This document shows positions 694 through 22,373 of a stretch of 23,949 nt of DNA, piece after piece (position 1 is the stretch's first letter; each line of letters starts with the position of its first letter). The stretch is from positions 1-23,949 of IMG/VR virus record IMGVR_UViG_3300009132_000038; one strand, written 5' to 3'. The stretch comes from a virus. The position numbers and the translations under genes are program-made. The notes under the pieces were generated by a model. The model was not told the DNA's origin. It searched no databases and saw only the letters and a list, made by a program, of their open reading frames with translations.

Positions 694-702
694 ACTAAAT
701 AG
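694..702 (-). promoter_or_regulatory. Candidate late promoter-like motif CTATTTAGT
   Basis: The minus strand reads CTATTTAGT, 24 nt before the start codon at 669 and immediately after the terminator at 703-732. Near-identical sequences follow hairpins at 3710-3718 and 11231-11239. It could be a promoter element for the next unit or simply the U-rich tail of the terminator. It does not match the T4 late consensus TATAAATA. Confidence 0.25.
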
Positions 703-2562: not shown

Positions 2563-3678
2563 TTATTTATTCAAACCTGCTAAACGCAGCATACGACCCA
2601 TATTTGGGTCTTTAGTAGCCTCGTTGTTTTTTCGGGAGTTGAGTAATAAGGATGTAGGTCGCTGAACCGCTTCACGAAGTGTCTGTGGTCGTGTGCGCTG
2701 ATCTGGCGCGGACCCCACTGCGTTTTGAATCGTTTCAAAAATCATACCCGTTTCTTCAACAGAATTGGCAGATTGAACAGCTTCGACAATTTGTGTTTTT
2801 TGTCGCTCATTCAAGGAGGCGCTATTCAAAGCCTTGTTTTGATAAACAAGCTTGGCGTTATCCAAGTTCAACTTCATGAGCTGATCCTTGGCTTCCATAA
2901 TAAGAGCACGTAGCTCTGTATTAGAATCTGTAAGTTCTGAGATCTTCGTCTCAAAGAGGGCGGCGTCAGAAACTGTATCGACAGTCTGTACCTCTTCCTC
3001 TTCCTCTTCTTCGAGGTTATCGGCATTAGCGGCTGCTGCGGCCATGGCTTCATCATTAGCCTGGAGAACGCTGTTATAAGCGGACCCTTCAGCGGACCAG
3101 CCCTGGGGTCGTGGTGTCATATCCACAGTAAGCTCTTCGATCAGATCGGCGATCATCTCTTCAGTAAGGTTAATCTCGTCGTCTTCGCATGCCTCTTCCA
3201 CAGCTGCATTTTCGATGTCCTGATTGGACATTGCATCATCTTCTTCTTGATCAACTTGACTAACACCAGAGAGGGTTGCTGCGGCGTCAGACTCAACATC
3301 GCTCATACCTGTCTGAGTTTCTTCTAGTGCATCGGCAAGGTCGAGGGCGTCATTTAGGTCCTCTTCTTCCACCATCTCGTCTTCTTCCTCTATACGAGCC
3401 TTAAGGGCATCAAAATCAATCTCTACGATTTCTTCGTCTGGGACTCCATCAACTTCTTCATTGGCAAAAGCAAATGGGACATCTTCAGTAAATTCCATAA
3501 GATCTTCGCCATTTGTAGCCTCTTCCTCTAGTCCCATCTCATCCTGCTCCAAAAGAGTATCGAGGGCGCGCTTGACTTCTCCTGAGTATTTGTTTAGGAC
3601 AGCGTCTTCTGCATTTTTTAATGCAGCTTCCTTGAGGGCTTTAGCGTCTACAATTGCTTCTTCTAATAGTGAAGACAT
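2563..3678 (-). CDS. 22: Prohead core scaffold protein, T4 gp22-like
   Basis: 371 aa and extremely acidic, with runs of Glu/Asp at about residues 90-110, 150-180 and an eight-residue Glu run near 225. A predicted coiled-coil follows (about 235-285, containing LMKLNLDNAKLVYQNKAL). The C-terminus is basic and ends MGRMLRLAGLNK. Acidic helical composition, size and position directly upstream of gene 23 fit the T4 gp22 scaffold, which fills the prohead and is degraded by the protease before DNA enters. Leu/Ile-x-Glu sites (SLLEEA, TLLEQD, INLTEEM) are candidate cut sites. The start is ATG with TTGGAG 8 nt upstream. The gene is preceded by a terminator and a small inverted repeat, so it probably has its own promoter and is cotranscribed with 23. 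Sequence similarity to gp22 is weak by nature; the call rests mainly on context. Confidence 0.87.
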   Translation of the reverse strand: MSSLLEEAIVDAKALKEAALKNAEDAVLNKYSGEVKRALDTLLEQDEMGLEEEATNGEDLMEFTEDVPFAFANEEVDGVPDEEIVEIDFDALKARIEEEDEMVEEEDLNDALDLADALEETQTGMSDVESDAAATLSGVSQVDQEEDDAMSNQDIENAAVEEACEDDEINLTEEMIADLIEELTVDMTPRPQGWSAEGSAYNSVLQANDEAMAAAAANADNLEEEEEEEVQTVDTVSDAALFETKISELTDSNTELRALIMEAKDQLMKLNLDNAKLVYQNKALNSASLNERQKTQIVEAVQSANSVEETGMIFETIQNAVGSAPDQRTRPQTLREAVQRPTSLLLNSRKNNEATKDPNMGRMLRLAGLNK

Positions 3679-3693
3679 AAGATTACTCCAAAT

Positions 3694-3708
3694 CTGATAA
3701 CTTATCAG
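3694..3708. promoter_or_regulatory. Perfect 7-bp inverted repeat in the gene 22 leader
   Basis: CTGATAA-C-TTATCAG is a perfect inverted repeat 15 bp upstream of the scaffold start codon, just ahead of its ribosome binding site. It would form a small hairpin in the leader mRNA or serve as a dyad operator. AT-richness makes a weak fold likely. No function can be assigned. Confidence 0.4.
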
Positions 3709-3709
3709 A

Positions 3710-3718
3710 AATAAATAG
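3710..3718 (-). promoter_or_regulatory. Candidate late promoter-like motif CTATTTATT
   Basis: Minus strand CTATTTATT, 31 nt upstream of the gene 22 start and downstream of the terminator at 3774-3807. It is identical over nine bases to the motif at 11231-11239. A promoter is needed here to restart transcription of 22-23 after the terminator, but the element itself is unproven. Confidence 0.3.
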
Positions 3719-3773
3719 TGCTTAGGATGCCGAAATGACTAATAGATGATTATTTCCATCTTATTCTCAAACT

Positions 3774-3807
3774 AAAAAGGGTGCCCCCCAAAAGGAGGAC
3801 ACCCTTA
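3774..3807 (-). terminator. Intrinsic terminator after the 824-aa fibre gene
   Basis: The minus strand has AAGGGTGTCCTCC, a TTTT loop, GGGGGGCACCCTT and then TTTTTAG. The 13-bp GC-rich stem contains two G-U wobbles that pair only in minus-strand RNA, and the U-run follows directly. It lies 38 bp beyond the fibre stop codon and separates the fibre operon from scaffold-capsid. Confidence 0.9.
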
Positions 3808-3845: not shown

Positions 3846-6320
3846 TTAGTACAGTCGCCAAAGGTCGCTACCCACATCGACGCAGATCAAAGATACTGCG
3901 GCGTATGGGGACTCAAGGACCACAGACGCTGCACCGTCAATTGTACCGCCAGAGACAGTAATTGTCAGTGAAGAGCTGCAGTTTGCTGGAGCCTTAACGT
4001 GAACGATGTCGCCCACTTCCTGTGGAGCTGGCAAAGACCAGACCCGTGCGGATGTGAGAGAAGCGTTACCGTAGTTGAAACCTTCTGCCAATGTTGCAGC
4101 TTCGTCGCCAATGGCGTTTGGAGCTACAGCGGAGTCAGCAGAAAGAACACCGTTGGTTGCAGTGAGACCAGCACCTGCCATGGCAGTTACGAGGTCAGCA
4201 ATGCTTTCCTTCTTGGAACCGTTGTCATCAGCGTCGACAATAGCAATGCTATCAGCGGCAACATTGACAGCTGCGCCAGCGAGATCGTTAAGGTCAAGAC
4301 CGAGACGACCAGCTGTGGAAGAAAGACCTTCGTTAGCACCAGCTGCGAGAGCTGTTGCATAGTTAGCAAGACTGGAAATCTTGATAGCGCCAGAAGCACC
4401 GTCATCAATCACCATCATGTCTGCTGTAAGATCAATTGCGACCGAAGCCAAGTTGTCAGCAGTCAAAGTACCACCGATCTGGAAGTTACCCGAACCGGAA
4501 ACACCTGCTGCAGTAAGGTTCTTACTAGCATCAGAGAGCTGGCTGTTAGCAATCTTGAAAGTCTGAGCAACGTCGAGGGAACCAAGAGCTTCAAGCTCTG
4601 CACCGTTCGAACCCATGGAACCGAGGTTAGCCAGGGTATCGATAGCTGCCTCAATGGTAGCTTCAGTTGTAGCATCAAGAGATGCAACGTTCTGAAGTGC
4701 CTGAGCGGCGCTAAAGACCTCCACACTGTCAATCTGAAGTGTGCTGAACTTACCAGCGTCGGAACCAGAGACTACACCAGTGGAGAACATCATTGCCTCA
4801 AACTCGCCGCTGGATCCAATACCGATGTGACCAACGGAAGTGATAGAAGCACCACCGGTCATCGTACTAGCAACATCAAGACCTACGTCCGAAGCGCCGG
4901 ATACCTTAAGGTTAACGCGGGAAGTTGCTTCCTGCGGAGTAACCCGGTATACCAAGTCGTCAGACGCGTTGTAGATCGCGCTCATACCATCAAACATGTA
5001 GCTACTACCACTAGCAGATGACGAAACGGCGAGACCGATGTAGCCACCCATCATTGGGTTACGTGTAAGGTTGTACGAAATCAACTCGTCGTCGTCCAAC
5101 TTACCAGCTGTCGAAACGAGCGGCAGTCGACCTGAGACAAGGTTTGTCGCCTTAAGGTCAGCAGAACTCAGCATTACCGAAGTAGCAACAGAGCCCGAAC
5201 CATCATAAGTGAAGTTGGCGTTTGCGCCGAACTCACCATTCTGGTTGTACTGAACGTATGTGTCCGAACCCACAGCATCAAGGTTTTCAACGTTGATGTT
5301 GGTGATGCCGGAACCGTCACCCTTGAAGTAGGAAGCGGTCAGCTGATTGATACCAGTGATATCCTTGGACGCGTCGAGAACGACGGCCTTGGAAGCCTCA
5401 GCAGTACCCGCTGCAGCAACGTTGGTGAAGTTAAGATCAGCAGCGGAAGCATTAACGAGAACGCCACCAAGCAACAGACCATTGGTACCATCGTGAGAAG
5501 CGATATCAAAATCATACGCTCCATCTTTGATGATAATATCACCATCCGCCTGAAGCTGAATCAGATCAGAAACCGAGTCTGGTCCAATGTAGCTGTCGTC
5601 GTCGACAGACAAGCTCTTGAGAGCTACGTCACCGTCGGCATCAACAGAGAAGCCGGACATTGTGATTGTGCCCATTGTGAGGTCGCCGGAGCCATCAACA
5701 CTTGTGAGACCGCTAGCGGCACCAGCTGCGCTGATAGATGCAGCTGCCAAAGTCAGAGCATTGGCGGTTGCAGTTCCATCCACGGCGAGCGATGCACCCT
5801 GGAGTTGTCCCGAACCACTGACTGTGGATGTCGAGGCCAGCGATGCAACGTTGGAGTTGCCGGAACTATCAACAGAAAAGCCTGTCATAGTGATGCTGCC
5901 CATTGTGAGGTCACCAGAACCGTCAACACTCGTGATGTTACTGACTGCGCGAGCAGACGAGATAACCTCTGAGTTTGCAATCTTAAGACCCTGAGCAACG
6001 TCAAGAGAGCCAAGAGCCTCAAGTTCGCTACCGTCTGAACCCATGGATGCGAGATTTGCAAGTGTATCGATTGCAGCCTCAACAGTTGCCTCAGTTGTTG
6101 CATCAAGGGATGCAATGTTCTTGAGACCTTGTGCGGCGTCAATGACTTCTACACTGTCAATGGAAAGTGTGCTGAACTTACCAGCAGCCGAACCAGAAAC
6201 AATACCGGACTGTAATACAGACGCGACTTCGCTTCCCGCTTGGTTGTGGAGCTTAAAAGCACCTTCCTGTGTAAGGGCGCCACTCATCTGAGCGAGACCC
6301 GATTGATATTTATATGCCAT
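3846..6320 (-). CDS. Long repetitive fibre-like virion protein
   Basis: 824 aa, rich in Ala, Ser, Gly, Asp and Thr with almost no Cys, typical of a fibrous beta-structured phage protein. An 80-residue unit at residues 39-118 recurs at 514-593 with about 81% identity. A shorter unit (SVDGSGDLTMG...) occurs at 128-161 and 204-237. Residues about 353-374 (YVQYNQNGEFGANANFTYDG) match a module also present in the next two upstream fibre genes. The last about 65 residues (TITVSGGTIDGAASVVLESP ... WRLY) match the C-terminal domain of the 440-aa fibre at 6499-7821. There is no signal peptide or enzymatic motif. The ATG has AGGAGG upstream, and a terminator follows. It is probably a tail, neck or head fibre taking part in host recognition; which one cannot be told from sequence. 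Confidence 0.8.
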   Translation of the reverse strand: MAYKYQSGLAQMSGALTQEGAFKLHNQAGSEVASVLQSGIVSGSAAGKFSTLSIDSVEVIDAAQGLKNIASLDATTEATVEAAIDTLANLASMGSDGSELEALGSLDVAQGLKIANSEVISSARAVSNITSVDGSGDLTMGSITMTGFSVDSSGNSNVASLASTSTVSGSGQLQGASLAVDGTATANALTLAAASISAAGAASGLTSVDGSGDLTMGTITMSGFSVDADGDVALKSLSVDDDSYIGPDSVSDLIQLQADGDIIIKDGAYDFDIASHDGTNGLLLGGVLVNASAADLNFTNVAAAGTAEASKAVVLDASKDITGINQLTASYFKGDGSGITNINVENLDAVGSDTYVQYNQNGEFGANANFTYDGSGSVATSVMLSSADLKATNLVSGRLPLVSTAGKLDDDELISYNLTRNPMMGGYIGLAVSSSASGSSYMFDGMSAIYNASDDLVYRVTPQEATSRVNLKVSGASDVGLDVASTMTGGASITSVGHIGIGSSGEFEAMMFSTGVVSGSDAGKFSTLQIDSVEVFSAAQALQNVASLDATTEATIEAAIDTLANLGSMGSNGAELEALGSLDVAQTFKIANSQLSDASKNLTAAGVSGSGNFQIGGTLTADNLASVAIDLTADMMVIDDGASGAIKISSLANYATALAAGANEGLSSTAGRLGLDLNDLAGAAVNVAADSIAIVDADDNGSKKESIADLVTAMAGAGLTATNGVLSADSAVAPNAIGDEAATLAEGFNYGNASLTSARVWSLPAPQEVGDIVHVKAPANCSSSLTITVSGGTIDGAASVVLESPYAAVSLICVDVGSDLWRLY
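4542..4781 (-). repeat. Copy 2 of an 80-aa intragenic repeat
   Basis: Encodes residues 514-593 of the 824-aa fibre. It is the counterpart of 5967-6206 with 65 of 80 residues identical by direct alignment. It shares the block LGSLDVAQ and the helical block SLDATTEAT(V/I)EAAIDTLANL. Confidence 0.9.
5610..5711 (-). repeat. Copy 2 of the short SVDGSGDLTMG repeat
   Basis: Encodes residues 204-237 of the 824-aa fibre and matches residues 128-161 (SVDGSGDLTMG(S/T)ITM(T/S)GFSVD). The 76-residue offset suggests tandem duplication within the fibre shaft. Confidence 0.8.
5838..5939 (-). repeat. Copy 1 of the short SVDGSGDLTMG repeat
   Basis: Encodes residues 128-161 of the 824-aa fibre. See the partner at 5610-5711; similarity is visible in both DNA and protein. 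Confidence 0.8.
5967..6206 (-). repeat. Copy 1 of an 80-aa intragenic repeat
   Basis: Encodes residues 39-118 of the 824-aa fibre. It is the partner of 4542-4781. The two copies are 475 residues apart, so this is not a simple tandem array; the intervening shaft may have been inserted or duplicated. Confidence 0.9.
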
Positions 6321-6498
6321 TTTAAAAAATCCTCCTATGGAAATGACTGAGACTGTGTTAAATCAAAAAATGTTTGAGGGTATCACTATCGGAGGAAGGA
6401 GTTACTAAAATTCTATACCCACATATGTCTCATTACATATAGATCTTTGGACGACAAGAAGACAGAAATATTTTATATTTTATTATATTTTTTTTACT
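6321..6498. other. AT-rich intergenic region between two fibre genes
   Basis: 178 bp without a credible gene. The part next to the upstream gene (about 6466-6495) is nearly pure A/T and includes a minus-strand TATAAT (6482-6487), but I see no good -35 box. The part next to the downstream gene holds its AGGAGG ribosome binding site. No strong GC-rich terminator hairpin is seen. It may carry a promoter for the 824-aa fibre gene. Confidence 0.5.
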
Positions 6499-7821
6499 TT
6501 AGTAAATGAACCAGTTTGTGCCATTTGAATATAGAAATACTGATCCATATGGCGACTCTATGAAAACGTCGGAATTACCATCTATTGTCTGGGAAGCAGA
6601 AGCATTAAGAGTTATAGTATTAGTCGGGCTTGCGGCCCCTGACTCATCTTTAATCACGAGAACCTGACCATCAGAAAAGGCTGTAGCATCACACAAAATA
6701 GATGTGGGTACAGCTGTGACAGCGAGAATATATTCGGTTAGGGATGCGGTATGGGTCGTGGAGATTGCGGTGCGCTTATGAATAAGTCCGCCGGATAGAT
6801 AAGAATTCCCATCGGTGCGAAGCGCTGAGGAGCTTAGTGTTGTCACTTGGGCTAAAGATCCCGTATAGGATCCTGTTAGCGTCGTTCCATTAAATGTAAG
6901 GTTTGCTGAGGCTCCGAAGCTGCCAGCATTGTTAAACTGAAGTTGGGTGTTAGCGCCGGCTGGTGATGTCGTAGCGCCGTCGCCTGTGGCGAGTACAACA
7001 TTGTTATTAGCGTCCAGAGATAAGTAACTCCCCGGGCCGGCCATTGTCCCGGACACAGGTTCTATATTCACAAACGATGCAGAAATCGTGGTGAGTTCAG
7101 CCAGCGAACCCGTATAGGACCCGGTGAGGGTTGTGCCGTTGAAGGTGAGGTTACTTGAGCCAGAGAATGCGCCGGCATTATTGAATTGTATTTCTGTGGT
7201 TGCGCCGCCGGGGTTTTGTCCGGAACCACTCATACGCGTGATAGCATAATCACCAATGTACAGGAATGCATCCACATAGGCAGGATTCTCGTCCGAATCC
7301 GTGGGCGGGTCCTGTTGGAAAAAGATTCCATTAAAATAATCTAGTACCCAATCGCGAGCGTCAAGAGCGGGAATCTGTGTTGGTCCAGATGAGGTGTGGT
7401 ATACCAGAGCCGTGTAGTTGGACCCGAAGGAGGGAGGGATGATCTGAAGGGTGCCAGTTGTCTCATTCAAAACTTGTCCATTAAGATAGAAACCAGTGCC
7501 TTTCTTGGGGTTGGAAGAGTTCGCCTGATAGTCTGTAGGGAGACTCAAAGCGAATGCTTGATAGCGACCGTCATCATCTTTGGTGCCGGCCATGGGAGTT
7601 GCAACAAGTTTCACCATCTCCGCAACGCCTCCCAAAATAGTATAATAGGAGCTAGAAACTGGGGTAGGCGGTTCGTACCCAAAAATAGTACTAGCGCCCA
7701 TACTGATATTTGAGCCTATACCCTCGTTGGATACCCCTTTCGTATTAGATGTTTGTGCTTTGCCTAAAACCTTCTTGAAAGAAAGATTAAGTTTTGAAGT
7801 ATCGGTTAATGCAGTGGACAT
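6499..7821 (-). CDS. Fibre-like virion protein with duplicated QFNNAG modules
   Basis: 440 aa. Residues 1-205 form a non-repetitive N-terminal region, including ARDWVLDYFNGIFFQQDPP (155-173), which I take to be the virion-attachment part. Residues 209-247 and 292-330 are two copies of a module with QFNNAG(A/S)F and a shared NLTFNGTTLTGSYTGSLA core, separated by a linker (GPGSYLSLDANNNVVLATG). The last about 80 residues (CDATAFSDGQVLVIKDESG ... NWFIY) are related to the C-terminus of the 824-aa fibre and probably form the distal tip or trimerisation domain. The ATG directly abuts the stop of the 983-aa gene, with GGGGAG inside that gene as ribosome binding site. Likely a tail or neck fibre. 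Confidence 0.8.
   Translation of the reverse strand: MSTALTDTSKLNLSFKKVLGKAQTSNTKGVSNEGIGSNISMGASTIFGYEPPTPVSSSYYTILGGVAEMVKLVATPMAGTKDDDGRYQAFALSLPTDYQANSSNPKKGTGFYLNGQVLNETTGTLQIIPPSFGSNYTALVYHTSSGPTQIPALDARDWVLDYFNGIFFQQDPPTDSDENPAYVDAFLYIGDYAITRMSGSGQNPGGATTEIQFNNAGAFSGSSNLTFNGTTLTGSYTGSLAELTTISASFVNIEPVSGTMAGPGSYLSLDANNNVVLATGDGATTSPAGANTQLQFNNAGSFGASANLTFNGTTLTGSYTGSLAQVTTLSSSALRTDGNSYLSGGLIHKRTAISTTHTASLTEYILAVTAVPTSILCDATAFSDGQVLVIKDESGAASPTNTITLNASASQTIDGNSDVFIESPYGSVFLYSNGTNWFIY
6832..6948 (-). repeat. Copy 2 of the QFNNAG/NLTFNGTTLTGS module
   Basis: Encodes residues 292-330 of the 440-aa fibre. It matches residues 209-247 at a spacing of 83 residues. The core NLTFNGTTLTGSYTGSLA is identical in both copies. 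Confidence 0.85.
7081..7197 (-). repeat. Copy 1 of the QFNNAG/NLTFNGTTLTGS module
   Basis: Encodes residues 209-247 of the 440-aa fibre. Divergent versions are also visible in the 983-aa protein (about residues 243-262) and the 824-aa protein (353-374), so the module is shared among three neighbouring genes. Confidence 0.85.
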
Positions 7822-10773
7822 TTAGCTACTCCCCCATGCTATACTTAGGGCTGAGATGTAGCCAGTCCATGCAGCGTCGGCAACTATTTTAACAACTATG
7901 TTCTCATTCTGCTCAACCGTCTGCGTGACAAAGGTACCCTCATGTGTATCATTGTTAATCTCTAGACCGCCAGGGTCCGGGGTACCAACAAAGGCGCCAT
8001 CGAGATTATTTAGTTGCGCTGGGTCGTTAGCTGTGGCAGATCCTAGGTCGAGCCAGCCTGTCGTCATTGCTGTCGATGTTGTCGGGAGCTTCACGAACAC
8101 GCGAATATTGGTAGCCGACAGCGCAGTGGTAGCTGGGACAATGCGCGTACTAGTATCTCCTGTAAAACTTATACGGAAATTAGTCTGGGAGGCTGCGCCG
8201 GTTTGAGTAAAGTATCGGAAGAAGGTACGAGTTCCCGAAATACTTGAATAATCTACATTCCCGGCGGGGCCGTTTGCAATAGCACTAAAGTCCCCACTAT
8301 TAGGAATATCTCCATCAATAGGTGAATACAGTCTCTGATTGTAGAACAGCAAGCCGTCTATTGTGAGAAGAGAGTCGCTAGAGGTCCAGGCATTAGCCGC
8401 ATCAACTACATCCGCTTGTGCGGCATAAGAGGATAGACTACCAGAGTCAAGTCGATAGTTTTCTCGCCTAAATGTTTCGCTAGTGGTAGTAGAGTTGTTG
8501 GATCTGTTGTATGCAAGAAGACTACTAATTGTCTCTGCTCCTCCGTTGGAGAGGTTAGACTTTAGTGGGTGAGCTACATTGACTCCTGCGCCGATAGAAC
8601 TATCCAAAATTGAAGTCCCATCCACAGTAAGACTTCCGGTAAGCTGAAGGATTTTTCCTTCGTCTTCGCTCCCTACTGAGATGCTAGGCATAGAAACAGA
8701 AGGAATGGAGCCATTCGTAACCGTATAAGAAATATTAGTAGAAGTGTAAACATTTCTATAGGCATTGGATACATCCACTCGGTATTCTGCTGTGCCGCCC
8801 GTATGATACTTTACCCCGGATAGACGTAAGTCTCCCGTCATGGATAAAGAATCTAGCACACTATTGGATGCTGCGAGGGCGTTGCTATTCGAATCATTAA
8901 CCCACGCCACATAGTTAGTGGTTCTGTCAAATGTAGATGAGGTGTGAATCACGCGCAGATAATTCCACCCCTCCTGCTGGTCGGCAGCTGTCACCTTGTA
9001 CTTACCGGTGCGGTGCTGGAATAGGTCCAGCTCTGTTCCATCATCAAATTCTGCTGATCCGGTCTGACTAAGGTCATAGAATCCGGATCCATTACCATTA
9101 AGGTCTGTACCCGTACCAGAACCAGGGACACCAGTGCCGACACTTGAGTCGGTCATCGACGCAGTATGGAGTGTGGCACCATTAACCTCCAACACAAGGT
9201 TTCCCTTATTAGCATCACCAAAAGAGTTAGCCGGGTAGTTGACCCCATCTGCTCCAACGTCTTCGTTGAGATCGCCGTTTATTACGGTGCTGCCATTGAA
9301 GGTGCCGCGGCGTAAATTGTTCCCACTGATTGAGGTACTGTAAGTTCCATTGATATCAACTGCGGAGAATCCCGCTGTTGTCCCCACATTAGTATAGCCG
9401 CTAATTCCCTGTGAGGCGCCAAAGGAAAGTTCTGCTGAGACGCCTGTATCATCGCAATCAATATCATCTAGATTCGGCGCTGGTCCCGGAGAGAGAGCCT
9501 TAAGAATTTCATTGAAGCGGTCGACGGCGGTGCCAACAGGAGTTGTATTGGTGAAATCTGCAAAGAGACCATCGGCATAGGTGGAGTCTTCTGCGGCGCC
9601 TATTGTCAAGGCAGTTAATTCAGCTCCATCTCCATAGAAAGCTGATGCCGAAACATTAACACTAGCGGACAGGGAGCCGCTAATTGAAACCTTGTGGTCG
9701 GGAGCGGTGGTGCCACCAATAGCTAGACTACTCGTCACATATGCACTAGATCCGTCAATAACCGTAAAGATACCATCAACGGAACTACCTCCGCCGACTG
9801 ACGAGGTGACGATAATATTGTTTTGTGCATCCAGAGCCAAGAAACTTCCTAGCCCAGCTACTGTTCCAGAGGTCGGCAACAAATTAGCATAGGAAGAGGA
9901 AGCAGTAGTGCTATAAATTATAGATGATGACACCGAATTGGAAGCCGTAAGGCTCCCAGTTATTACCATAGAATTGGAAGCTGTTAGAAAAGTAAAATTA
10001 GCTGTGCCGGCAAATACTCCAGCGCCGGCTTGAAGTTGTACAGACCCAGCTGGTCCGGCCGCATTCTGCCCGGAGGCGGCTATTGTTATTGTGCTGTTTG
10101 CCCCTCCGTCAGTAATTGTAATGCCCTCGCCGGCTGTAAGCACACGCTCGTTGGGTAGCTTGGTATCCGGTGTCACCGTTATATAACTGGCCGCTAGTGG
10201 CGGATAGGGCGCGGGGCGCGGAGCGGGATTGTCGACTTCGCCTGCCTGTTCCGCAGGAGTAACCGGGCGGTCGACTGCGGGCATCACGCGGAAGGTGCCC
10301 TTGCGAGCCCGCACACACTCTGCGGCGATCTGGAATTTATGTTCTACTTGTCCGAAGTAATATCGGGTATCATCAAAGGTCTTGACGATTTCATAGAAGA
10401 ACTCGCCATACTGGATAAAGTCACCAACTCGGACGTAAAGATTTTGATCTTCAGTGATCCGGCGTTCGCTAAAATATACAGTTAATTTGGTCTGATATTC
10501 ATATCCGAACTTTTCGTTACTTTGTTCGTTCGCCACATCAACGTATGCATAAACGCGGACTGGCGGGAGAGAAACTTTCTCAACGGCCTCGCCGTAGGTT
10601 TCGTTAAAGTTGGATTCTTCAGTACTTATAGGATAATAAGCAATGGGTTGTCCGATGACCCTTTCGGAAAGTTCATCATTAACCTGTTTTACTAAATCAC
10701 GTTCTTTTTTCCCGAAGAACATCGGGGCTGGGGGAGCCGCCGGTTGATTCCACTTGTTTTTTGGATCTGACAT
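7822..10773 (-). CDS. Putative neck/head-closure domain fused to a long fibre
   Basis: 983 aa with two distinct parts. Residues about 1-165 are non-repetitive and charged (NKWNQP; FFGKKERDLVKQVNDELSER; VRVGDFIQYGEFFYEIVK; RYYFGQVEHKFQIAAEC). The pattern 'GD-(I)-x-Y-(G)-x-x-(F/Y)-EIV', followed by beta strands, recalls small head-closure/adaptor proteins of phage necks. A Pro-rich linker follows (about 168-192). Residues about 200-983 are Ser/Thr/Gly-rich fibre sequence with a module matching the neighbouring fibre (LPTSGTVAGLGSFLALDAQN against PVSGTMAGPGSYLSLDANN) and the segment DGLFADFTNTTPVGTAVDRF. I infer a fibre anchored at the neck, formally like T4 whiskers (fibritin), but not homologous by eye. 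The start is ATG with AGGAGG. A second AAGGAGG lies 25 bp further upstream, overlapping the previous stop codon. Confidence 0.75.
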   Translation of the reverse strand: MSDPKNKWNQPAAPPAPMFFGKKERDLVKQVNDELSERVIGQPIAYYPISTEESNFNETYGEAVEKVSLPPVRVYAYVDVANEQSNEKFGYEYQTKLTVYFSERRITEDQNLYVRVGDFIQYGEFFYEIVKTFDDTRYYFGQVEHKFQIAAECVRARKGTFRVMPAVDRPVTPAEQAGEVDNPAPRPAPYPPLAASYITVTPDTKLPNERVLTAGEGITITDGGANSTITIAASGQNAAGPAGSVQLQAGAGVFAGTANFTFLTASNSMVITGSLTASNSVSSSIIYSTTASSSYANLLPTSGTVAGLGSFLALDAQNNIIVTSSVGGGSSVDGIFTVIDGSSAYVTSSLAIGGTTAPDHKVSISGSLSASVNVSASAFYGDGAELTALTIGAAEDSTYADGLFADFTNTTPVGTAVDRFNEILKALSPGPAPNLDDIDCDDTGVSAELSFGASQGISGYTNVGTTAGFSAVDINGTYSTSISGNNLRRGTFNGSTVINGDLNEDVGADGVNYPANSFGDANKGNLVLEVNGATLHTASMTDSSVGTGVPGSGTGTDLNGNGSGFYDLSQTGSAEFDDGTELDLFQHRTGKYKVTAADQQEGWNYLRVIHTSSTFDRTTNYVAWVNDSNSNALAASNSVLDSLSMTGDLRLSGVKYHTGGTAEYRVDVSNAYRNVYTSTNISYTVTNGSIPSVSMPSISVGSEDEGKILQLTGSLTVDGTSILDSSIGAGVNVAHPLKSNLSNGGAETISSLLAYNRSNNSTTTSETFRRENYRLDSGSLSSYAAQADVVDAANAWTSSDSLLTIDGLLFYNQRLYSPIDGDIPNSGDFSAIANGPAGNVDYSSISGTRTFFRYFTQTGAASQTNFRISFTGDTSTRIVPATTALSATNIRVFVKLPTTSTAMTTGWLDLGSATANDPAQLNNLDGAFVGTPDPGGLEINNDTHEGTFVTQTVEQNENIVVKIVADAAWTGYISALSIAWGSS

Positions 10774-11230: not shown

Positions 11231-11239
11231 AATAAATAG
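11231..11239 (-). promoter_or_regulatory. Candidate late promoter-like motif CTATTTATT
   Basis: Minus strand CTATTTATT immediately downstream of the hairpin at 11240-11254 and 15 nt before the start codon at 11215. It is identical to 3710-3718. The short distance to the start codon would allow only a very short leader. Confidence 0.25.
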
Positions 11240-11254
11240 ACGCCACCTGGGCGT
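11240..11254. terminator. Weak hairpin just after the bS21 stop codon
   Basis: ACGCC-ACCTG-GGCGT is a perfect 5-bp stem with a 5-nt loop. On the minus strand it is followed by CTATTTATT and on the plus strand by TTTATC, so it could work weakly in either direction. It begins one base past the bS21 stop and may dampen read-through from the head genes into the fibre genes. Confidence 0.4.
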
Positions 11255-11255
11255 T

Positions 11256-11477
11256 TTATCTAAACAATTTTTGTTGTTTCTTTCTTTCTAGTTTGCGGCG
11301 CTCTCTTCGGGCAGCTTCAGACTTAAGCTTTTTACTTATTGAAGGCTTAATATAATGATCTGTTTTAGAGCGATAGAGCTTTACAATACCTTCTTTCTTG
11401 CACTTACGATTAAAGCGGCGGATTAATCTCTCAGATGTTTCTCCGCGTCGTAGATCTACTTTCACATTTACTGGCAC
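11256..11477 (-). CDS. rpsU: Phage-encoded small-subunit ribosomal protein bS21
   Basis: 73 aa, the size of bacterial bS21. The bS21 pattern is clear. After a short strand comes RRGETSERLIRRFNRKCKKE (residues 10-29), equivalent to the '(E)..(D/E).aLrRFkR.cek.Gi' core. Then come GIVKLYRSKTDHYIKPS and a strongly basic C-terminal helix (KKLKSEAARRERRKLERKK). bS21 binds the 30S platform near the anti-Shine-Dalgarno end of 16S rRNA and affects initiation. The start codon is GTG at 11475-11477, three bases after the stop of the preceding gene, with a modest AGGT ribosome binding site, so translation is probably coupled to that gene. bS21 homologues are known in some aquatic phages. I infer that it replaces or supplements host bS21 to favour phage mRNAs. 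The identification is strong; the function in infection is inference. Confidence 0.9.
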   Translation of the reverse strand: MPVNVKVDLRRGETSERLIRRFNRKCKKEGIVKLYRSKTDHYIKPSISKKLKSEAARRERRKLERKKQQKLFR

Positions 11478-11480
11478 AAC

Positions 11481-11930
11481 TTACCTACTTTCTTTCTTTA
11501 CATCGCTCATATGAGCATTCCAGTTTCTTCCAACACTTCCGAATAGATTTCCAATATCTACGCCCGCATCATTTGGCGCTTGGCCAGATAGGGGACTAGC
11601 TGATTGTGCTGGACTTGACTGTGCTGGGGCTGGTGTAGTGCCCTCAAAGAGATTAACTCCATTGTAGGCTTCTCCACCGATAGCGGACATCAACTTAGTC
11701 CGATGCTCCTGAAGCTTGGAGGCTTGTTGCTCACTGAACGCATTTTTCTGCATGCGCTCTAGTTGGGGGTCGGGGGTTTCCACCTTCTGCTCTACTATGG
11801 GCTGAGTGGATGACATTCCCCTTACAACCTCAGCAATGATACCTGAGATCATCCCATCTTCCATGAGAGACTCTTTGATACACTCGTGGACGAGTGGCTT
11901 GATTAGTTTCTTAAATTCTGACTTCTTCAT
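11481..11930 (-). CDS. Prohead core-region protein of unknown function
   Basis: 149 aa. The N-terminus is amphipathic and basic (MKKSEFKKLIKPLVHECIKE), followed by SLMEDGMISGIIAEVVRG. The first part resembles the short targeting helices of T4 internal head proteins, and LMED contains a possible gp21-type cut site. Residues about 50-85 are charged and helical. The C-terminal half is Ala/Pro/Ser-rich and probably disordered (TPAPAQSSPAQSASPLSGQ). The ATG overlaps the protease stop codon (ATGA), so the gene is coupled to 21 and sits where T4-like phages place core proteins. I infer an internal or core head protein; no family is recognised with certainty. Confidence 0.7.
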   Translation of the reverse strand: MKKSEFKKLIKPLVHECIKESLMEDGMISGIIAEVVRGMSSTQPIVEQKVETPDPQLERMQKNAFSEQQASKLQEHRTKLMSAIGGEAYNGVNLFEGTTPAPAQSSPAQSASPLSGQAPNDAGVDIGNLFGSVGRNWNAHMSDVKKESR

Positions 11931-12529
11931 TTCTCACCGACGATCTCGTTCATTAACGTAATGATCTTATTGTTCTTCTCGACTTGTTCGTTTACAAGCT
12001 TGCCTTCCGACAAAGCAATAAAAGCATTGGGCGTAGAGGGCTCTGACACAATATCAAAACAGATGAGCTGAAAATCATCTTCAACGATTGTCTCGCCCAT
12101 TCTTTCACTTACGGATCCCATGCCGCGGGAGGAGATGCCGATCTTAACGCCAGCATCCACTAGCGAGCGGAGGATCTGTCCTGCGGGGGTATCCAGTACT
12201 TTGCACTTCCCCATTACCTTTGGACCTTCCATCCAAATATCAATTACCATATGTGACACATTGGCTAGATTAACGATAGAAGAATCGGGGTGGTCAAGCT
12301 CACCCAGGGCACGATTGTCATCTACGATTTGCTTATACTTGCCGACTTCGCGCTCCATTACGCCCATAGGGTACTTGCGCTTGTTTCCATTGGGCCGGTC
12401 TGCTTCCTGCAGTTTCCCAGTTAGAATCATGCCACCCTCTTTAACAAAGCGCTTCTCAGCCTCTGTCAGTAAGTCCTGACAGACGCCGCCTTCGCATAGT
12501 TCATAAAATTCTCGTAATAGTTGTGCCAT
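11927..12529 (-). CDS. 21: Prohead maturation protease, T4 gp21-like
   Basis: 200 aa, close to T4 gp21 (212 aa). The serine protease signature of the gp21/herpesvirus assemblin-like fold is present: GELDHPDSS with His80, and VKIGISSRGMGSV with Ser133/Ser134. A third conserved acidic segment lies in FDIVSEPSTPNAF. The N-terminus contains LLTE23/Ala, a site of the kind gp21 cuts, which suggests self-processing. It would be packed in the prohead core and cut scaffold, capsid and internal proteins before DNA packaging. It overlaps the following gene by 4 bp and lies 15 bp after the gene at 12545. In T4 it is directly followed by 22; here bS21 and fibre genes intervene. Confidence 0.95.
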   Translation of the reverse strand: MAQLLREFYELCEGGVCQDLLTEAEKRFVKEGGMILTGKLQEADRPNGNKRKYPMGVMEREVGKYKQIVDDNRALGELDHPDSSIVNLANVSHMVIDIWMEGPKVMGKCKVLDTPAGQILRSLVDAGVKIGISSRGMGSVSERMGETIVEDDFQLICFDIVSEPSTPNAFIALSEGKLVNEQVEKNNKIITLMNEIVGEK

Positions 12530-13364: not shown

Positions 13365-13678
13365 GATTCACCTCCTTTGTGGATCACACGGATCCCATAA
13401 TCATCCACTAACATACTAAGAAAGTAGGATGTTCCAGCGCTAATACACCCATATAGAAATGCATCTACGAGCGTATAGTCAAAGTTAAATAGTTCTGTAT
13501 AGGGACTAATGCCCCACAGAAACACACCAACCCAGAATCCCATGCACAAATGGCAATGGAATAAACGACCGAAGCCACCCATTGATTTGCAGGGTGGGCG
13601 GATCTTATTAAAGATGTGTCCGTGAATAATAATAAAGGTCATGCCGTAAGCGGCAAGCACAAAATGTAATAGTTCCAT
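13361..13678 (-). CDS. Small membrane protein with a CxxC motif (DUF1360-like)
   Basis: 105 aa. A hydrophobic N-terminal segment (LLHFVLAAYGMTFIIIHG, residues 3-20) is followed by Cys30 and HCHLCMGFWVGVFLWG (41-56), then a second hydrophobic segment (about 71-90) and a short polar tail. 'C-x2-C-x-GFW-x-G' after a first membrane helix resembles small phage membrane proteins of the DUF1360 type. The paired cysteines might bind metal or form a disulphide. The ATG overlaps the upstream stop by one base (TAATG). It is odd to find a membrane protein among head-core genes. It could act in superinfection exclusion or membrane-associated prohead assembly, both speculative. Confidence 0.7.
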   Translation of the reverse strand: MELLHFVLAAYGMTFIIIHGHIFNKIRPPCKSMGGFGRLFHCHLCMGFWVGVFLWGISPYTELFNFDYTLVDAFLYGCISAGTSYFLSMLVDDYGIRVIHKGGES

Positions 13679-14745: not shown

Positions 14746-15544
14746 GTGCTGAAAGCTCCTTAACTAATTCTTGTGTCTTGAGGATCTTGTTGAGATCTCT
14801 ATCAGTAAAGTCCCTCTTCCGGAACTCTTCAAGATATTCATTTACATTGTCCAGCTTCTGAACAATTAGAACCTCTTCTGTGGTCTTCTTAGCATCTTCT
14901 ACCAGAGATTTCAGTCGGGTGAGTTCCTCATTAAGATAGACGCGCAACTCAAAGCCCTCATCAGCAAAGCTGGTGATGTAGCGATTCAGAAGATCTTTTT
15001 GCTCCTGGAGCAGATCGGTGTATTTGCTATTAAATTTCTTAATGAACGAGTGGTATGTAATATTGTCAATGGTTTTGAGATCTTCATTTAACTCATCGGT
15101 AGCTGTCATCTTCTCAATGATCTGCTGCTCAAAAAGTACTTTTGTCTTAACGGGCATCTTTGTGTTGAAGATCGCATTAACCGAAGCCAGAGACTTAAAG
15201 TTAGGTACAAAGTTAGACCAGACATGTTTTCCGAGATTCTTATTGATTGTAGCAATGATTCGGGACTGTGCATCAAAGACAGCCTTATCGTCCAGTTTGG
15301 AGTAAGCAAACTTAGTTTCCTGAAGCATCCGCTCAGCAAGGTTCTCGGGGACATTCTGCGACTCAAGCAATACCTTGTAGAGATTCAGCTCTGCTGTGAG
15401 TGGGGAGTCCGGGGTGAAGTGCTCTTTCACAATTGAAATCACCAAAGCCTTTTGTTCTGTTTCCTTCTCTACAATAGCCTTTGTCAGCTCTCGTGAGAGG
15501 GTTTCATAAATAAAGGCGGTGTTTCTTTTCTTATTATGTTTCAT
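14738..15544 (-). CDS. Helical protein directly downstream of portal
   Basis: 268 aa, Lys/Glu-rich and almost entirely helical by pattern, beginning MKHNKKRNTAFIYETLSREL. Hydrophobic positions recur through about 30-130 (NLYKVLLESQNVPENLAERM). A Lys/Glu-rich C-terminal section (about 200-268, with VQKLDNVNEYLEEFRKRD) is compatible with a coiled coil. No signal peptide, membrane segment or catalytic motif. It overlaps the portal gene end by 11 bp, implying coupled translation and probably a portal-linked assembly or core role, where T4 encodes the small core proteins 67 and 68. It is much larger than those, so the comparison is positional only. Confidence 0.7.
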   Translation of the reverse strand: MKHNKKRNTAFIYETLSRELTKAIVEKETEQKALVISIVKEHFTPDSPLTAELNLYKVLLESQNVPENLAERMLQETKFAYSKLDDKAVFDAQSRIIATINKNLGKHVWSNFVPNFKSLASVNAIFNTKMPVKTKVLFEQQIIEKMTATDELNEDLKTIDNITYHSFIKKFNSKYTDLLQEQKDLLNRYITSFADEGFELRVYLNEELTRLKSLVEDAKKTTEEVLIVQKLDNVNEYLEEFRKRDFTDRDLNKILKTQELVKELSAHD

Positions 15545-17486
15545 CTTTCTTTACCTCTTTACGCTCCATCTCTTCTACCAAACGTCTGACTTTAGAAGTG
15601 TTCTCAAACAAAACTGACTCGTCATTAGTATAAGTAGGTCGGTTTGATTCCTCTAGACCAATGTTACTGCGAAGGGATGCCATTGTTACCTTACCCGGAT
15701 GTTTGGTCCGGGCGGTGGTTCCCATCTCAGGTCCCTTAATCATTCTCTTCATTTCTCGGCGCATTGGTCCCGCGGAGTGCTGTGTGGCACTGCCGCGGCG
15801 CATATCAACTTCTACCGGCGTATGGGGGGCGCCCTGGTGTTTTGTCGGATTATCTTCTCGGCGTCCGGGTGTTGCCAGCAGTGCAGACTCGTCGCCTGCT
15901 GCTTCCTCGCCTCCGGCGTCGCCACCGAGGTCCAGGTCGCCACCGAGATCGTCGCCGCCTAGATCATCTAGTCCGCCCATGTCGCCGCCTAGGTCACCTA
16001 AGCCTTCGCCACCAGCTTCTTCCATGGCACCCTGTTCTGCCAGGGACTCTAGATCCTGCTGATACTTGCGGTCATAGAATGTCTCGCGTTGATTACGCAG
16101 GAACTCTGTGTCTGTCATTCCCAGAATATTCCGGGCGACCCAACGCTTGCTATATACTCCCTCAGGAACGCCTGTTGCTGTGTCGAACTTGGTCTTCATG
16201 TATTCAAGCTGCTGCAGCTCGGCTAGACGAGAAGGATTGTTAAGAGTGATCTTAAAGGAGAGAAGATCCTGTCCGCGGTAGCCTAGAGTATAGAGATGAA
16301 CAATGGCCATCTTCTCCAGCTCTGCAATAATGGATCGCTGGAGTCGGTGAATGGTACGGGCGAAACGAATGTCCTTCTGAGCTAATGTGGTCTTGTCTTC
16401 ACTTCCACCCTCTAGGTTGGTCAAATATGCCTGGGGGATCTTGATTGCTGCAAAGAGTTTGTCTCTCAGGTACTTAACATCTTCAATGTCGTTAAGAGAC
16501 TTGGCGCCTTGGAGTGAGACAATGTCCGAGCCCACGCCACCGCGCATTGGAATAAAATAATCCTCTTCAAGGGATAGCGGGTTATAACGCAGATCAACGC
16601 GTCCAGTATTAGCATCAACCAGAGAGTTTCGTTTCATCTCTGTCTTGACCTTCTCCATATAGTTCGGGACGTCCTGAGGCGGAATATTGCCGACGTCAAT
16701 CTTAAACACGCGGCGCTCGGGAGCGCGGACGACACGATAAGCAATCATAGCATCCTCAAGCAACACAAGCTGACGCCAAATACGGCGGGCTGGGTCTAAG
16801 ACCGATGTTCCGTAAGGACTGTACTTGTCGTTCCCGAGAATGCGGAAGTGGGCAACCTGCCAGTTCTCAAAAGTCATTCCGGCGCCGTTCCACTGATATT
16901 GAACGTAGTTGGGGTTCGAGGCGTCCTGTCCCTCAAGGCGCTCGACCTCGTTGTTGGGCATTCCAATTACCGAGGTGATTCCCAGCTTCTCATCAATATC
17001 CAAGTACAAAAAGAAGTCTCCGTACTTGCACATGGACCGTGCCCAACCAAAGCAATTGAACTCAATGTTGAGTGCATCATAGAACAAAGACTCAAGGATA
17101 GTTTTGATCTCGTGGTTGAGGCAGTCAATGTTAAGGAGACGATCAAACTCATTGGAAGTCGTCATCTCGTCAGCATAGATATCAAGTGCCGAGGCAATCT
17201 CAGGCATGTACTCCATTTGTTCAAAATCTACATAACGTTCGGCGCGGTTCTGGTTACGGAACGCAGCCGAGGTCATCATGTTATAGTTCTGCGAGTATTG
17301 GCTGTCTGAACGCTTGAACTCTTGTCCGCTCATTGAACGGAATCGGAAGCGATACTTATCTAGGTTGTTGCGGCGATCTTGTCGTGCTACCTGTGTGCGG
17401 TAATTAACAATCGGTCCCGACAGCAGGCGCGTGAGCCTCTTGAATAGTGGGGATGCTGGGTTTCTTGTATTGTCGTTCTTAGCCAT
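15534..17486 (-). CDS. 20: Portal protein, T4 gp20-like
   Basis: 650 aa against 524 in T4. Family-typical segments are evident: MEYMPEIASALDIYADEMTT (91-110), FNCFGWARSMCKYGDFFLYL (143-162), KYSPYGTSVLDPARRIWRQL (221-240), VVRAPERRVFKIDVGNIP (252-269), and LRDKLFAAIKIPQAYL (340-355) before GGSEDKTTLAQKD. The dodecameric portal starts head assembly, docks terminase and later connects to the neck. The extra length is a C-terminal extension from about 480. It starts with a Gly/Asp/Leu low-complexity tract (493-532), continues basic, and ends with GLEESNRPTYTNDESVLFEN, which has possible protease sites. The gene starts 3 bp after the terminase stop codon and overlaps the next gene by 11 bp. Confidence 0.96.
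   Translation of the reverse strand: MAKNDNTRNPASPLFKRLTRLLSGPIVNYRTQVARQDRRNNLDKYRFRFRSMSGQEFKRSDSQYSQNYNMMTSAAFRNQNRAERYVDFEQMEYMPEIASALDIYADEMTTSNEFDRLLNIDCLNHEIKTILESLFYDALNIEFNCFGWARSMCKYGDFFLYLDIDEKLGITSVIGMPNNEVERLEGQDASNPNYVQYQWNGAGMTFENWQVAHFRILGNDKYSPYGTSVLDPARRIWRQLVLLEDAMIAYRVVRAPERRVFKIDVGNIPPQDVPNYMEKVKTEMKRNSLVDANTGRVDLRYNPLSLEEDYFIPMRGGVGSDIVSLQGAKSLNDIEDVKYLRDKLFAAIKIPQAYLTNLEGGSEDKTTLAQKDIRFARTIHRLQRSIIAELEKMAIVHLYTLGYRGQDLLSFKITLNNPSRLAELQQLEYMKTKFDTATGVPEGVYSKRWVARNILGMTDTEFLRNQRETFYDRKYQQDLESLAEQGAMEEAGGEGLGDLGGDMGGLDDLGGDDLGGDLDLGGDAGGEEAAGDESALLATPGRREDNPTKHQGAPHTPVEVDMRRGSATQHSAGPMRREMKRMIKGPEMGTTARTKHPGKVTMASLRSNIGLEESNRPTYTNDESVLFENTSKVRRLVEEMERKEVKKDET
15891..16010 (-). 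repeat. Gly/Asp/Leu low-complexity tract in the portal gene
   Basis: Encodes portal residues about 493-532, built from irregular repeats of (D)LGGD, such as LGDLGGDMGGLDDLGG. It is probably a flexible acidic linker, and the underlying DNA has short imperfect direct repeats prone to length variation. Confidence 0.8.
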
Positions 17487-17489
17487 TTG

Positions 17490-19073
17490 TTAGCCCTTGA
17501 TTAAACCCAGGTATTGTTTGTTGAAACTAGTTGCTTCTCCAACCCTTTGGTTTTCCTTTGTGATTTTGTGTCCGGTCATACCCGGAATAGTGGTAGAAAT
17601 AGCTGTAGAAGCTGTGCTGATGCCAGCAATAAAGCTCTTACTATATTCAACATTCTTTTGACTTTCGATGATCACAGTATCTCTCACCCAACAACCAATT
17701 GCAAACGACATCACTAAGTCGTCGTTATAACTTCTCATCGCTTGAGGTCGGCCATGATGCCAGATAAAGGTTTTCATTTCTGATAACAGGCGATTAGAGT
17801 TGATAGTAATTAGTTTGTTTCTCATAAACTCTTCCATCTTCGCAACAATCAGTGGTCTTGTTTTAGAAGATGTGGTGAATCCAGGTATCGCATTGGATTG
17901 CCATTGCGCTGTGACTGGATCGATATACTGGTGATCTCCCTTAGTAGAATAGTATAGGTTAGGATACTCTTTATCCTGGAGTTTTTTAAGTACCGCGAAG
18001 CCAATATTGTTGTTTTCTATTACTAACATAGGATTATTGTACTCTGCGGCTATACTATAAAGTATGTCAGCAAAGTCATCAGGCGTTGGCTTGCCGATGT
18101 ATTCCCCTACTTGTTTCATGTCATCAAGCTGAATAATATGAAATGCGCTATTGTCTTTTCCGTCGCCGCGTGCAACATCAGCCACAATCAGATAGGACTT
18201 CTCGGGGTCATACTTTTCCCAGATCCAATAGTTGCGATCAAATCCAGTTCTATATTCGGGGCTTGTAATCCGTTCTAGGAACCACTCTAGATCCTCAGGG
18301 TGGATTACTGTCTCGCCTGAAACATTAAAGTTACATTCAAGCTCTTGAGCAATCTGCCGCTTGGACATGTTTCGGGTTTCTTTTTCAAACCATTTCTTAT
18401 CTCTGTCGGGGTGGGCATCCCACATCAGCGTGGTCATGTGGAAGTCGTTTGTTCCACTCTCTGCTTCTACGCAGTTCTGATGGAACCAGTTACCCACGCC
18501 ATTAGGTGTGGAGAGTGCGATGCACCGACCACCAGTTGATAGGGTGGGATACAAAGCGGTCCAGAGTTCATCTAGACGCTCAACGTGAGCAGCCTCATCA
18601 ATAATAAGGAGCGAGAGGGCTTCGGAACGACCAGCGTCCCCAGAAGTTGAAGAACCCTTAATCTGAGAACCGTTACTTAGTTCAAACGATGTTCTGTTAT
18701 CTACTGTGATGTCCGCGATTTGCATCCACGGTGGGAGGTTCTTGATGATCGCTTTTACTTTTTTAACGAGGTTGGTGGCTGTCTGTAGCTTGGTTGCAAC
18801 GACGAGGATGTTCTTATCCTTGTGAAACAGCATTAGCCATGCTACGTAAGCTGCACTAATAGTGGAGATGCCCAGCTGACGGGCTTTGAGAATAATATTG
18901 AAGCGATAGTCTCGGAAGTCTTTTAAGAGTTCTTGCTGATAGCCATATGCTTTAAAGGGAATGAGCCCCTTTTGCGGATGGGAAATGCGGCAATAATTAA
19001 CTGTAAAATATACCGGGTCTTTACCGGCTTTGACTACTTCCTTTAATATCTCTTTCTTGGTAAGAGCGGCCAT
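17490..19073 (-). CDS. 17: Terminase large subunit, T4 gp17-like
   Basis: 527 aa with both expected domains. The ATPase has Walker A KARQLGIST (63-71), Walker B SLLIIDEAAHV (154-164) and the coupling motif ALSTPNG (186-192). The RNase H-like nuclease has acidic residues in VADVARGD (Asp299), VIENNN (Glu353) and YNDDLVM (Asp451/452). T4 gp17 is 610 aa; this is shorter but complete in motifs. It cuts concatemeric DNA and drives it through the portal. The C-terminal tail (about 480-527) is Ser/Thr-rich. The gene lies 3 bp from portal and 2 bp after an upstream gene. No recognisable small terminase lies beside it. Confidence 0.97.
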   Translation of the reverse strand: MAALTKKEILKEVVKAGKDPVYFTVNYCRISHPQKGLIPFKAYGYQQELLKDFRDYRFNIILKARQLGISTISAAYVAWLMLFHKDKNILVVATKLQTATNLVKKVKAIIKNLPPWMQIADITVDNRTSFELSNGSQIKGSSTSGDAGRSEALSLLIIDEAAHVERLDELWTALYPTLSTGGRCIALSTPNGVGNWFHQNCVEAESGTNDFHMTTLMWDAHPDRDKKWFEKETRNMSKRQIAQELECNFNVSGETVIHPEDLEWFLERITSPEYRTGFDRNYWIWEKYDPEKSYLIVADVARGDGKDNSAFHIIQLDDMKQVGEYIGKPTPDDFADILYSIAAEYNNPMLVIENNNIGFAVLKKLQDKEYPNLYYSTKGDHQYIDPVTAQWQSNAIPGFTTSSKTRPLIVAKMEEFMRNKLITINSNRLLSEMKTFIWHHGRPQAMRSYNDDLVMSFAIGCWVRDTVIIESQKNVEYSKSFIAGISTASTAISTTIPGMTGHKITKENQRVGEATSFNKQYLGLIKG

Positions 19074-19622: not shown

Positions 19623-20006
19623 TTATTCTTCCTCGTTAGGTCGCCAGCCTGTTGCCCATCTTTCTTCTCTGTGCTGGATGTATTGTATATAGCACCCGAA
19701 GCATGCTTCGAATTTATTCATATACAAATCATCCCGGGGGTGAAAAGAATATCTCGAACAAACAGGACAAGTCCTATTATGATCTCTAGTAAGTAGTTTT
19801 TTGTTTATTAAAAATCCGTCTTGTTCTACTTTGTCTTGGGATTCGGCCAGTTTAGCGAACTTACGCTGCTCTTCTTGTGATTGAGCAATGTAGCTCTTTT
19901 CTTTCTCATCATCCCAAAATCTCTTCGGATTGTTGATTGCTTCGGTGCCATACTTTTGAGAAATTGCCTTCTCTAGTTTGGCTATGTATTCTTGGTTGTC
20001 ATTCAT
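19623..20006 (-). CDS. Small zinc-ribbon protein
   Basis: 127 aa. Residues about 1-60 are helical and charged. The C-terminal half has CPVC (about 80-83) and CFGC (about 102-105) separated by 18 residues, a good zinc-ribbon arrangement, embedded in RYSFHPRDDLYMNKFEACFG and ending with EERWATGWRPNEEE. A nucleic-acid or protein-binding role is likely in general terms; the specific role is unknown. It overlaps the C1q-like gene by 4 bp and is followed after 1 bp by the gene at 19076, so all are one operon. Confidence 0.7.
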   Translation of the reverse strand: MNDNQEYIAKLEKAISQKYGTEAINNPKRFWDDEKEKSYIAQSQEEQRKFAKLAESQDKVEQDGFLINKKLLTRDHNRTCPVCSRYSFHPRDDLYMNKFEACFGCYIQYIQHREERWATGWRPNEEE

Positions 20007-20545
20007 CCCAACATATATCCACTAAAAAAATTAAATCTTGTAGTTGCCGGGGTGGAGCCTACCTCAATCCTGGCAGTTCCCGACTTAACAAAAGCTTGAA
20101 AGTCTATTTGATCACTGGCAGCCAAGGAGAGAATCACAGAGCCACCTACTGTCCAGTAGTCCACAGTCTGGTTATCTACTTCATAAATCCCTACACGATA
20201 ATTCTTTGACTGAGTTATGTTGCGGAACTGTCCCCATGGATATTGTGTTGATGAACTATCAATACTATCGATTCGCAGGTTCGCTGTGAATATGTATGTC
20301 CCAGTTCGCGGGGCCGTGAATGTATAGCTTGCAAAATCAGCATTGTTATCAAAATCAGCAGTATCAAACTGTACCGTAGTCCAGGTATCTGCACTCAGAG
20401 TTTGGTCCGTGCCGAGATAGTATAAGAAGCCAGGCTGCGAGGGGGCGCGGAAAATCCCTTTTACAACCAGTGAATCGATCTTTTTCAGGTATGCCTGAAG
20501 AAATGCTACTAGGCTGTTTCTAGTTTGTAACTCTGGGAAGCTCAC
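20003..20545 (-). CDS. C1q/TNF-like jelly-roll protein
   Basis: 180 aa from a GTG start (20543-20545) that overlaps the previous stop (GTGA); no strong ribosome binding site, so coupling is likely. After a short helix (NSLVAFLQAYLKKIDSLVV) the pattern is that of a C1q-type beta sandwich: TWTTVQFDTADFDNNADF, FTAPRTGTYIFTANLRID, VGGSVILSLAASDQIDFQAF, and the terminal RFNFFSGYMLG, matching the usual 'F-sG-(y/f)-L' ending. Such domains trimerise and occur in phage fibre tips and bacterial surface proteins. Here it is free-standing rather than fused to a fibre. It is probably a virion surface or receptor-binding component. Confidence 0.75.
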   Translation of the reverse strand: MSFPELQTRNSLVAFLQAYLKKIDSLVVKGIFRAPSQPGFLYYLGTDQTLSADTWTTVQFDTADFDNNADFASYTFTAPRTGTYIFTANLRIDSIDSSSTQYPWGQFRNITQSKNYRVGIYEVDNQTVDYWTVGGSVILSLAASDQIDFQAFVKSGTARIEVGSTPATTRFNFFSGYMLG

Positions 20546-21644: not shown

Positions 21645-22373
21645 ATGTCGAAACAAGTTAGACTTAAGTTTAAAAAATTACTAAAAAAGGCCGAGTTTGT
21701 ACATGCAGATTTAGAATACCACGAAGAATTGCTCCCGGAGGCAAAGCAAGAATTTATGGCGCATGTGAATGAAATTTTCCAGGCGCTACCTCTTGACGAG
21801 AAAAAGAAAATCAATGAACAACGTGAAAAGAGCCTGAGGGAGGAAACGGAAAGGCTTGAACGAGAAGCCGAGGAATCTCAGGAGGGGGATAAAGAAGAAG
21901 CAGAAGAGGAAGAAATTTCCCACACGCCAGATAAAGGCGATGAGTTGGACGACCTTCCAGAAATAGAAAACCCCGATGTTAGTCCGGTCAAGGGTTCCGA
22001 GTTAAAAAAGCTCTATTACAAAGTGGCCGACAAAACTCATCCTGACAAGGTGATAGCCAGAGGCGCCTCGGAGACTGAAGCCAAGCGTCTAGAGAAAATG
22101 TTCATGTCGGCTCAGGCAGCCTATAAAAATGCTAACTGGTATCTCTTATACTCGCTGGCGATGGATCTGGATATTGAGGTCGCGGATCCCACCAAAGAAA
22201 CTCTTCGGTGGTTAGAAGAAGACATCAAAGGAACAATGAGTAAAATCTCTAACGTGGCGGGGCTAATCATATGGGCATGGTATGTTGGAAGCGATACCGT
22301 GAAGGATCAAGCTCTCAAAAGCTATTTCCTACAGGCTTATGATTACAAGCTTGAAAGCACCTCTATTGACTAA
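21645..22373 (+). CDS. J-domain (DnaJ-like) coiled-coil protein
   Basis: 242 aa and the only plus-strand gene. An N-terminal helical region (LKFKKLLKKAEFVHADLEYH) is followed by a very acidic coiled coil (about 55-90) and a Pro/Asp linker. A J-domain core follows at about 118-175: LKKLYYKVADKTHPDKV with the diagnostic His-Pro-Asp at 132-134, then a helix with AQAAYKNANWYLLYSLAMDL. The C-terminus is helical. J-domains stimulate Hsp70 (DnaK) ATPase, so it may recruit the host chaperone to phage proteins. AGGAG lies 6 nt before the ATG. It is divergent from the holin-like gene (41 bp) and overlaps the end of gene 46 by 11 bp tail to tail. There is no obvious promoter in the short gap. Confidence 0.85.
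   Translation: MSKQVRLKFKKLLKKAEFVHADLEYHEELLPEAKQEFMAHVNEIFQALPLDEKKKINEQREKSLREETERLEREAEESQEGDKEEAEEEEISHTPDKGDELDDLPEIENPDVSPVKGSELKKLYYKVADKTHPDKVIARGASETEAKRLEKMFMSAQAAYKNANWYLLYSLAMDLDIEVADPTKETLRWLEEDIKGTMSKISNVAGLIIWAWYVGSDTVKDQALKSYFLQAYDYKLESTSID

Follow-up and report, generated by a model that had tools for sequence, protein, structure and literature searches.

A bS21 Gene in the Head-Gene Cluster of Large T4-Like Phages and Its Likely Late Control

The window analyzed here is a stretch of 23,949 nucleotides (positions 1 to 23,949 of the IMG/VR virus record IMGVR_UViG_3300009132_000038) with a head-gene cluster on its minus strand. The genes lie in the order terminase large subunit (TerL; 17490 to 19073; phrog_2, E value 1.8e-54), T4 gp20-type portal protein (15534 to 17486; PF07230, E value 2.7e-78), g268, g170, g183, g105, g236, T4 gp21-type prohead core serine protease (11927 to 12529; PF03420, E value 2.4e-29; phrog_207, E value 6e-56), g149 (11481 to 11930), bS21 (11256 to 11477), g136, three fiber-like genes, the scaffold-like g371, and the major capsid protein (MCP; 760 to 2526; phrog_138, E value 6.9e-72). 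The labels "scaffold-like" and "fiber-like" are readings from sequence and position. The conserved upstream neighbor of bS21, g149, had no match in Pfam and PHROG searches; it adjoins the protease in the 80 loci that it recovered and is possibly a prohead core protein. The initial annotation had placed bS21 between the prohead protease and structural genes, and this layout was confirmed, with the protease upstream and the scaffold-like and MCP genes downstream. The three long fiber-like proteins, encoded between g136 and the scaffold-like gene (3846 to 10773, minus strand), are very variable in number and sequence among relatives, while the neighboring genes are conserved.

The rpsU-like bS21 gene runs on the minus strand from a GTG start codon at 11477 to a stop codon ending at 11256 and encodes 73 amino acids. 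Its start had been described as lying three bases past the neighboring gene, and the gap to g149 is exactly 3 nt. The bS21 profile search suggested at that stage gave a significant, full-domain match to PF01165 (51.6 bits against a cutoff of 27 bits; E value, 7.5e-14; profile positions 1 to 55 of 55), and a profile search of the whole record found this open reading frame as the only bS21 match. Its matches in the PDB include 24 distinct bS21 sequences. An AlphaFold model (mean pLDDT, 86) contains three helices (residues 15 to 29, 31 to 39, and 45 to 72), and all 16 Foldseek matches to the model were bS21 or organellar bS21, each with an E value of at least 0.2 for this very small protein. The proposed identity as bS21 thus agrees with the profile match, the PDB matches, and the predicted fold. 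Pairwise dN/dS values against relatives, where computable, range from 0.02 to 0.14, and the gene is under strong purifying selection.

Related viral loci were recovered via bS21, and in 82 of 82 the gene lies among head-gene homologues and on their strand. That set was selected for bS21, and a second search was therefore anchored on g149. There, bS21 was found within the fetched stretch in 77 of 80 loci. Two of the remaining three (L150 and L154) carry it 2 to 8 kb downstream, immediately before the scaffold and MCP genes, and the third (L130) stops at a contig end. The gene is kept in 79 of the 80 g149-anchored loci, with the last one cut by the contig end; some relatives are near-identical or represent one contig fetched twice, so these locus counts are not independent. 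A whole-contig search of 13 contigs found exactly one bS21 in 12, the exception being the truncated contig of L130. Within a clade of large T4-like phages the gene is effectively core, and L150 and L154 indicate that it can change its slot yet stays in the head cluster. Two relatives with a moved bS21 (L177, 11025 to 11324; L178, about 3487 to 3789) have it beside the scaffold and MCP genes; these proteins have acquired an extension at the N terminus that is basic and rich in Arg and Asn, and each gene has a CTAYTTA box of its own in front.

A hairpin had also been reported after bS21. It is present in the window (11240 to 11254), but it has a weak tail (CTATTTATTA) with no T run, the folding of the region is not exceptional (z, −1.58), and the hairpin is absent from the downstream regions of most relatives. 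It was rejected as a terminator on these grounds. The conserved part of the spacer is instead the sequence CTATTTA (11233 to 11239, minus strand), directly after bS21 and followed by a Shine-Dalgarno (SD) sequence. Among 58 unique regions downstream of bS21, 43 contain CTATTTA and 51 contain CTANTTA, and the motif is a candidate late promoter for g136 and the genes that follow. It recurs in the window as ACTATTTA upstream of g371 (3712 to 3719, minus strand), where 14 of the 15 homologous regions have CTATTTA, and as CTATTTA before the gene that follows MCP (696 to 702, minus strand). Two large relatives likewise have the motif before their homologue of that gene, and one of these homologues matches the head-tail adaptor family.

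An unbiased tally of the 7-mers that precede genes in two large relatives put CTATTTA first, with 29 sense and 0 antisense occurrences. Across ten contigs, the strand of bS21 has 87 occurrences of the pattern ACTATTTAT and the opposite strand has 2, compared with 17 forward-strand and 17 reverse-strand occurrences of the reversed pattern used as a control. The genes behind CTATTTA encode tail sheath, head-tail adaptor, scaffold-like, fiber-like, and PhoH proteins. The ten large relatives searched all have a match to the gp55-like late sigma family phrog_234 (E values, 3e-9 to 6.5e-4). The late promoter of T4 and KVP40 is TATAAATA, and S-PM2 has NATAAATA (PMC2984593); Aeromonas phage Aeh1 late promoters have a/gC at −13/−12 (PMC2988020). 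No T4-consensus late promoter was found near bS21 on the coding strand, and the T4-type TATAAATA occurs in the window only inside a coding sequence.

We conclude that (A)CTATTTA is probably a variant gp55-type late promoter and that ACTATTTA is plausibly a further variant of the known late-promoter boxes. As in T4, there is a single short box before late genes and a gp55-like sigma, the latter in ten large relatives; the box differs (TATAAATA in T4, ACTATTTA here), and one copy here lies within a protein-coding gene. Being AU-rich and located at gene boundaries, the motif might instead be an RNA processing signal or another signal at the RNA level, in which case it would be silent on the timing of bS21. 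We regard this as unlikely, given the resemblance to the T4 and Aeh1 promoters, the position of CTATTTA 10 to 43 nt before structural and other genes, and the gp55-like sigma encoded by all ten contigs searched.

The copy of CTATTTA nearest upstream of bS21 lies within the coding sequence of g105 (13486 to 13493 including the leading A, ACTATTTA, minus strand), about 1 kb before the protease gene and about 2 kb before bS21. All 54 distinct homologues of g105, which share ancestry, carry it at the corresponding codons of the alignment (CTA-TTT-A). CTA makes up just 15% of the leucine codons in these head genes, and in g105 the remaining columns of six-fold codons are variable. In codon alignments of seven head genes, this CTATTTA is the sole invariant run of at least 7 nt. 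The simplest reading is that the g105 box would act as a late promoter for a unit of protease, g149, and bS21. With one box inside g105 and another directly after bS21, candidate late promoters flank the unit on both sides.

SD signals were compared between the phage genes of the window and internal start-like codons, with means of −5.5 and −2.0 kcal/mol, respectively (P = 3e-7). The strongest belong to MCP and two fiber-like genes (about −10 kcal/mol); that of bS21 is moderate (−4.2 kcal/mol; mean of −5.0 in relatives). Since the signal lies well above the control, the host probably depends on SD sequences for initiation. By sequence alignment, the residue equivalent to Tyr54 of Flavobacterium johnsoniae is Arg58, with Arg in 55 of the 56 distinct relatives that could be aligned and Lys in the other, and the tyrosine of Bacteroidia that blocks the anti-SD (ASD) sequence is absent from the phage protein. 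The occlusion mechanism of Bacteroidia is therefore not obviously applicable here. Host inference through bS21 similarity was tried and rejected: a genome scan gave only L096 (PBOB01000007.1), which is DNA of the same phage family and not a host. This contig was binned in an Acidiferrobacteraceae metagenome-assembled genome, which is a weak host hint only.

The initial annotation had suggested that bS21 is made late, when capsid proteins are made. Late expression is probable from the head-cluster placement, and the candidate late-promoter elements strengthen the case. With moderate confidence, we favor a reading in which this core gene is made late from the g105 promoter and its product joins the host 30S subunit and aids initiation on late mRNAs. 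The protease, g149, and bS21 genes would be transcribed late as one unit with bS21 as the last gene, probably starting at a gp55-type late promoter (ACTATTTA) concealed within g105. The protein would most likely join the 30S platform near the 3′ end of the 16S rRNA, replacing or supplementing host bS21, and would help initiate translation of the abundant late mRNAs of the phage, many with strong SD sequences. Late expression, entry into ribosomes, and a preference for phage mRNAs are what we infer, and a retuning of host ribosomes for capsid synthesis, as originally proposed, is plausible.

Support comes from the two contigs in which bS21 has relocated, where a CTAYTTA box of its own lies 28 to 36 nt before its start, and from the SD signal above control. 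The literature adds incorporation of a phage bS21 into 70S ribosomes and late coexpression in related contexts: bS21 of pelagiphage HTVC008M was incorporated into Escherichia coli 70S ribosomes (Mizuno et al. 2019; PMC6375957). The same protein lowered E. coli ribosome activity in vitro to about 5% of wild type, which weakens the favored reading, as does the finding that the bS21 region studied by Chen et al. (2022; PMC9723584) is not transcribed as a single operon. A more specific version, held only tentatively, is that an obligatory late bS21 is driven by a divergent, embedded gp55-type promoter and that its non-Bacteroidia form biases the 30S subunit toward strong-SD mRNAs, unlike the ASD-occlusion model.

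Two other roles for the protein were weighed. It could be a stoichiometric supplement that refills 30S subunits when bS21 becomes scarce during host shutoff, with no preference for phage mRNAs. The ribosomal core is conserved under strong purifying selection, a new domain is not evident, and bS21 has been described as an easily exchanged protein (PMC6375957), all of which would suit this role; dosage alone, however, does not demand the phage-family signature (e.g., N4, C26-K27, and R58), and we consider a pure supplement fairly unlikely. The protein might also be made alongside the head proteins, be packaged in the virion, and enter the next host cell as infection begins, a possibility raised by Chen et al. 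(2022; PMC9723584). Its gene belongs to the head cluster and comes just after the protease region, and the protein is small and very basic (net charge, +19), both consistent with packaging. The core starts at residue 6, however, so that the N-terminal extension is nearly nil and leaves almost no room for a capsid-targeting peptide; packaging appears very unlikely.

The head-cluster placement and the takeover idea are not new. Chen et al. (2022; PMC9723584) reported a bS21 gene expressed at a late stage in the vicinity of TerL, portal, prohead protease, and MCP genes, found structural genes nearby in 388 of 900 published bS21 phages, and proposed a late ribosome takeover with metatranscriptome support. 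The layout here shares that neighborhood, but bS21 of those lake phages lies on the strand opposite the structural genes, whereas here it is codirectional in the window and in 82 of 82 loci. The lake phages infect Bacteroidetes, and their residue at position 54 is aromatic, whereas here that residue is Arg and the phage genes show an SD signal. Because the hosts of this clade seem to use SD initiation, the published Bacteroidetes mechanism is not the whole story. HTVC008M and the pelagimyophages are likewise T4-like and marine, with S21 as a core gene (PMC6375957, PMC7029224). In the isolate Microcystis phage Mel-JY01 (PP395634), a gene annotated as RpsU occupies the same slot and is likewise codirectional, following the prohead protease as the second gene and preceding MCP; this phage is diverged (TerL, 47% identical to that of the window) and has no CTATTTA directly behind rpsU. 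A tblastn search of bS21 against isolate phages gave no match, an uninformative negative since Mel-JY01 carries one. In Flavobacterium phage immuto, the protease is followed by a gene for 75 amino acids that was judged by eye not to be bS21-like.

The bS21 gene of the window is of a known kind, and the addition made here is its likely late control. The head-cluster bS21 is extended to a clade that retains the gene almost without exception, and the directional (A)CTATTTA motif is what is new. The motif offers sequence-level evidence, independent of transcriptomes, for bS21 in the late program, and the ACTATTTA box gives a large group of uncultivated T4-like phages a candidate late promoter that can be tested directly.

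Other features of these genomes were observed. The only long plus-strand gene in the window (21645 to 22373) encodes a 242-amino-acid protein with an HPD motif and a weak DnaJ-domain match (E value, 2.3e-4), which is below the Pfam cutoff. A minus-strand gene at 20003 to 20545 has a borderline C1q-domain match (22.2 bits against a cutoff of 23.7) and perhaps encodes a fiber or receptor-binding tip. A short motif, K-x-L-K-x-I/L-I/V-K/R-E-x, lacking in bS21, recurs at the N or C terminus of several prohead-region proteins, among them those encoded at 11481 to 11930 (minus strand) in the window and at 427 to 921 and 1540 to 2595 in L096, and may be a capsid-targeting signal.
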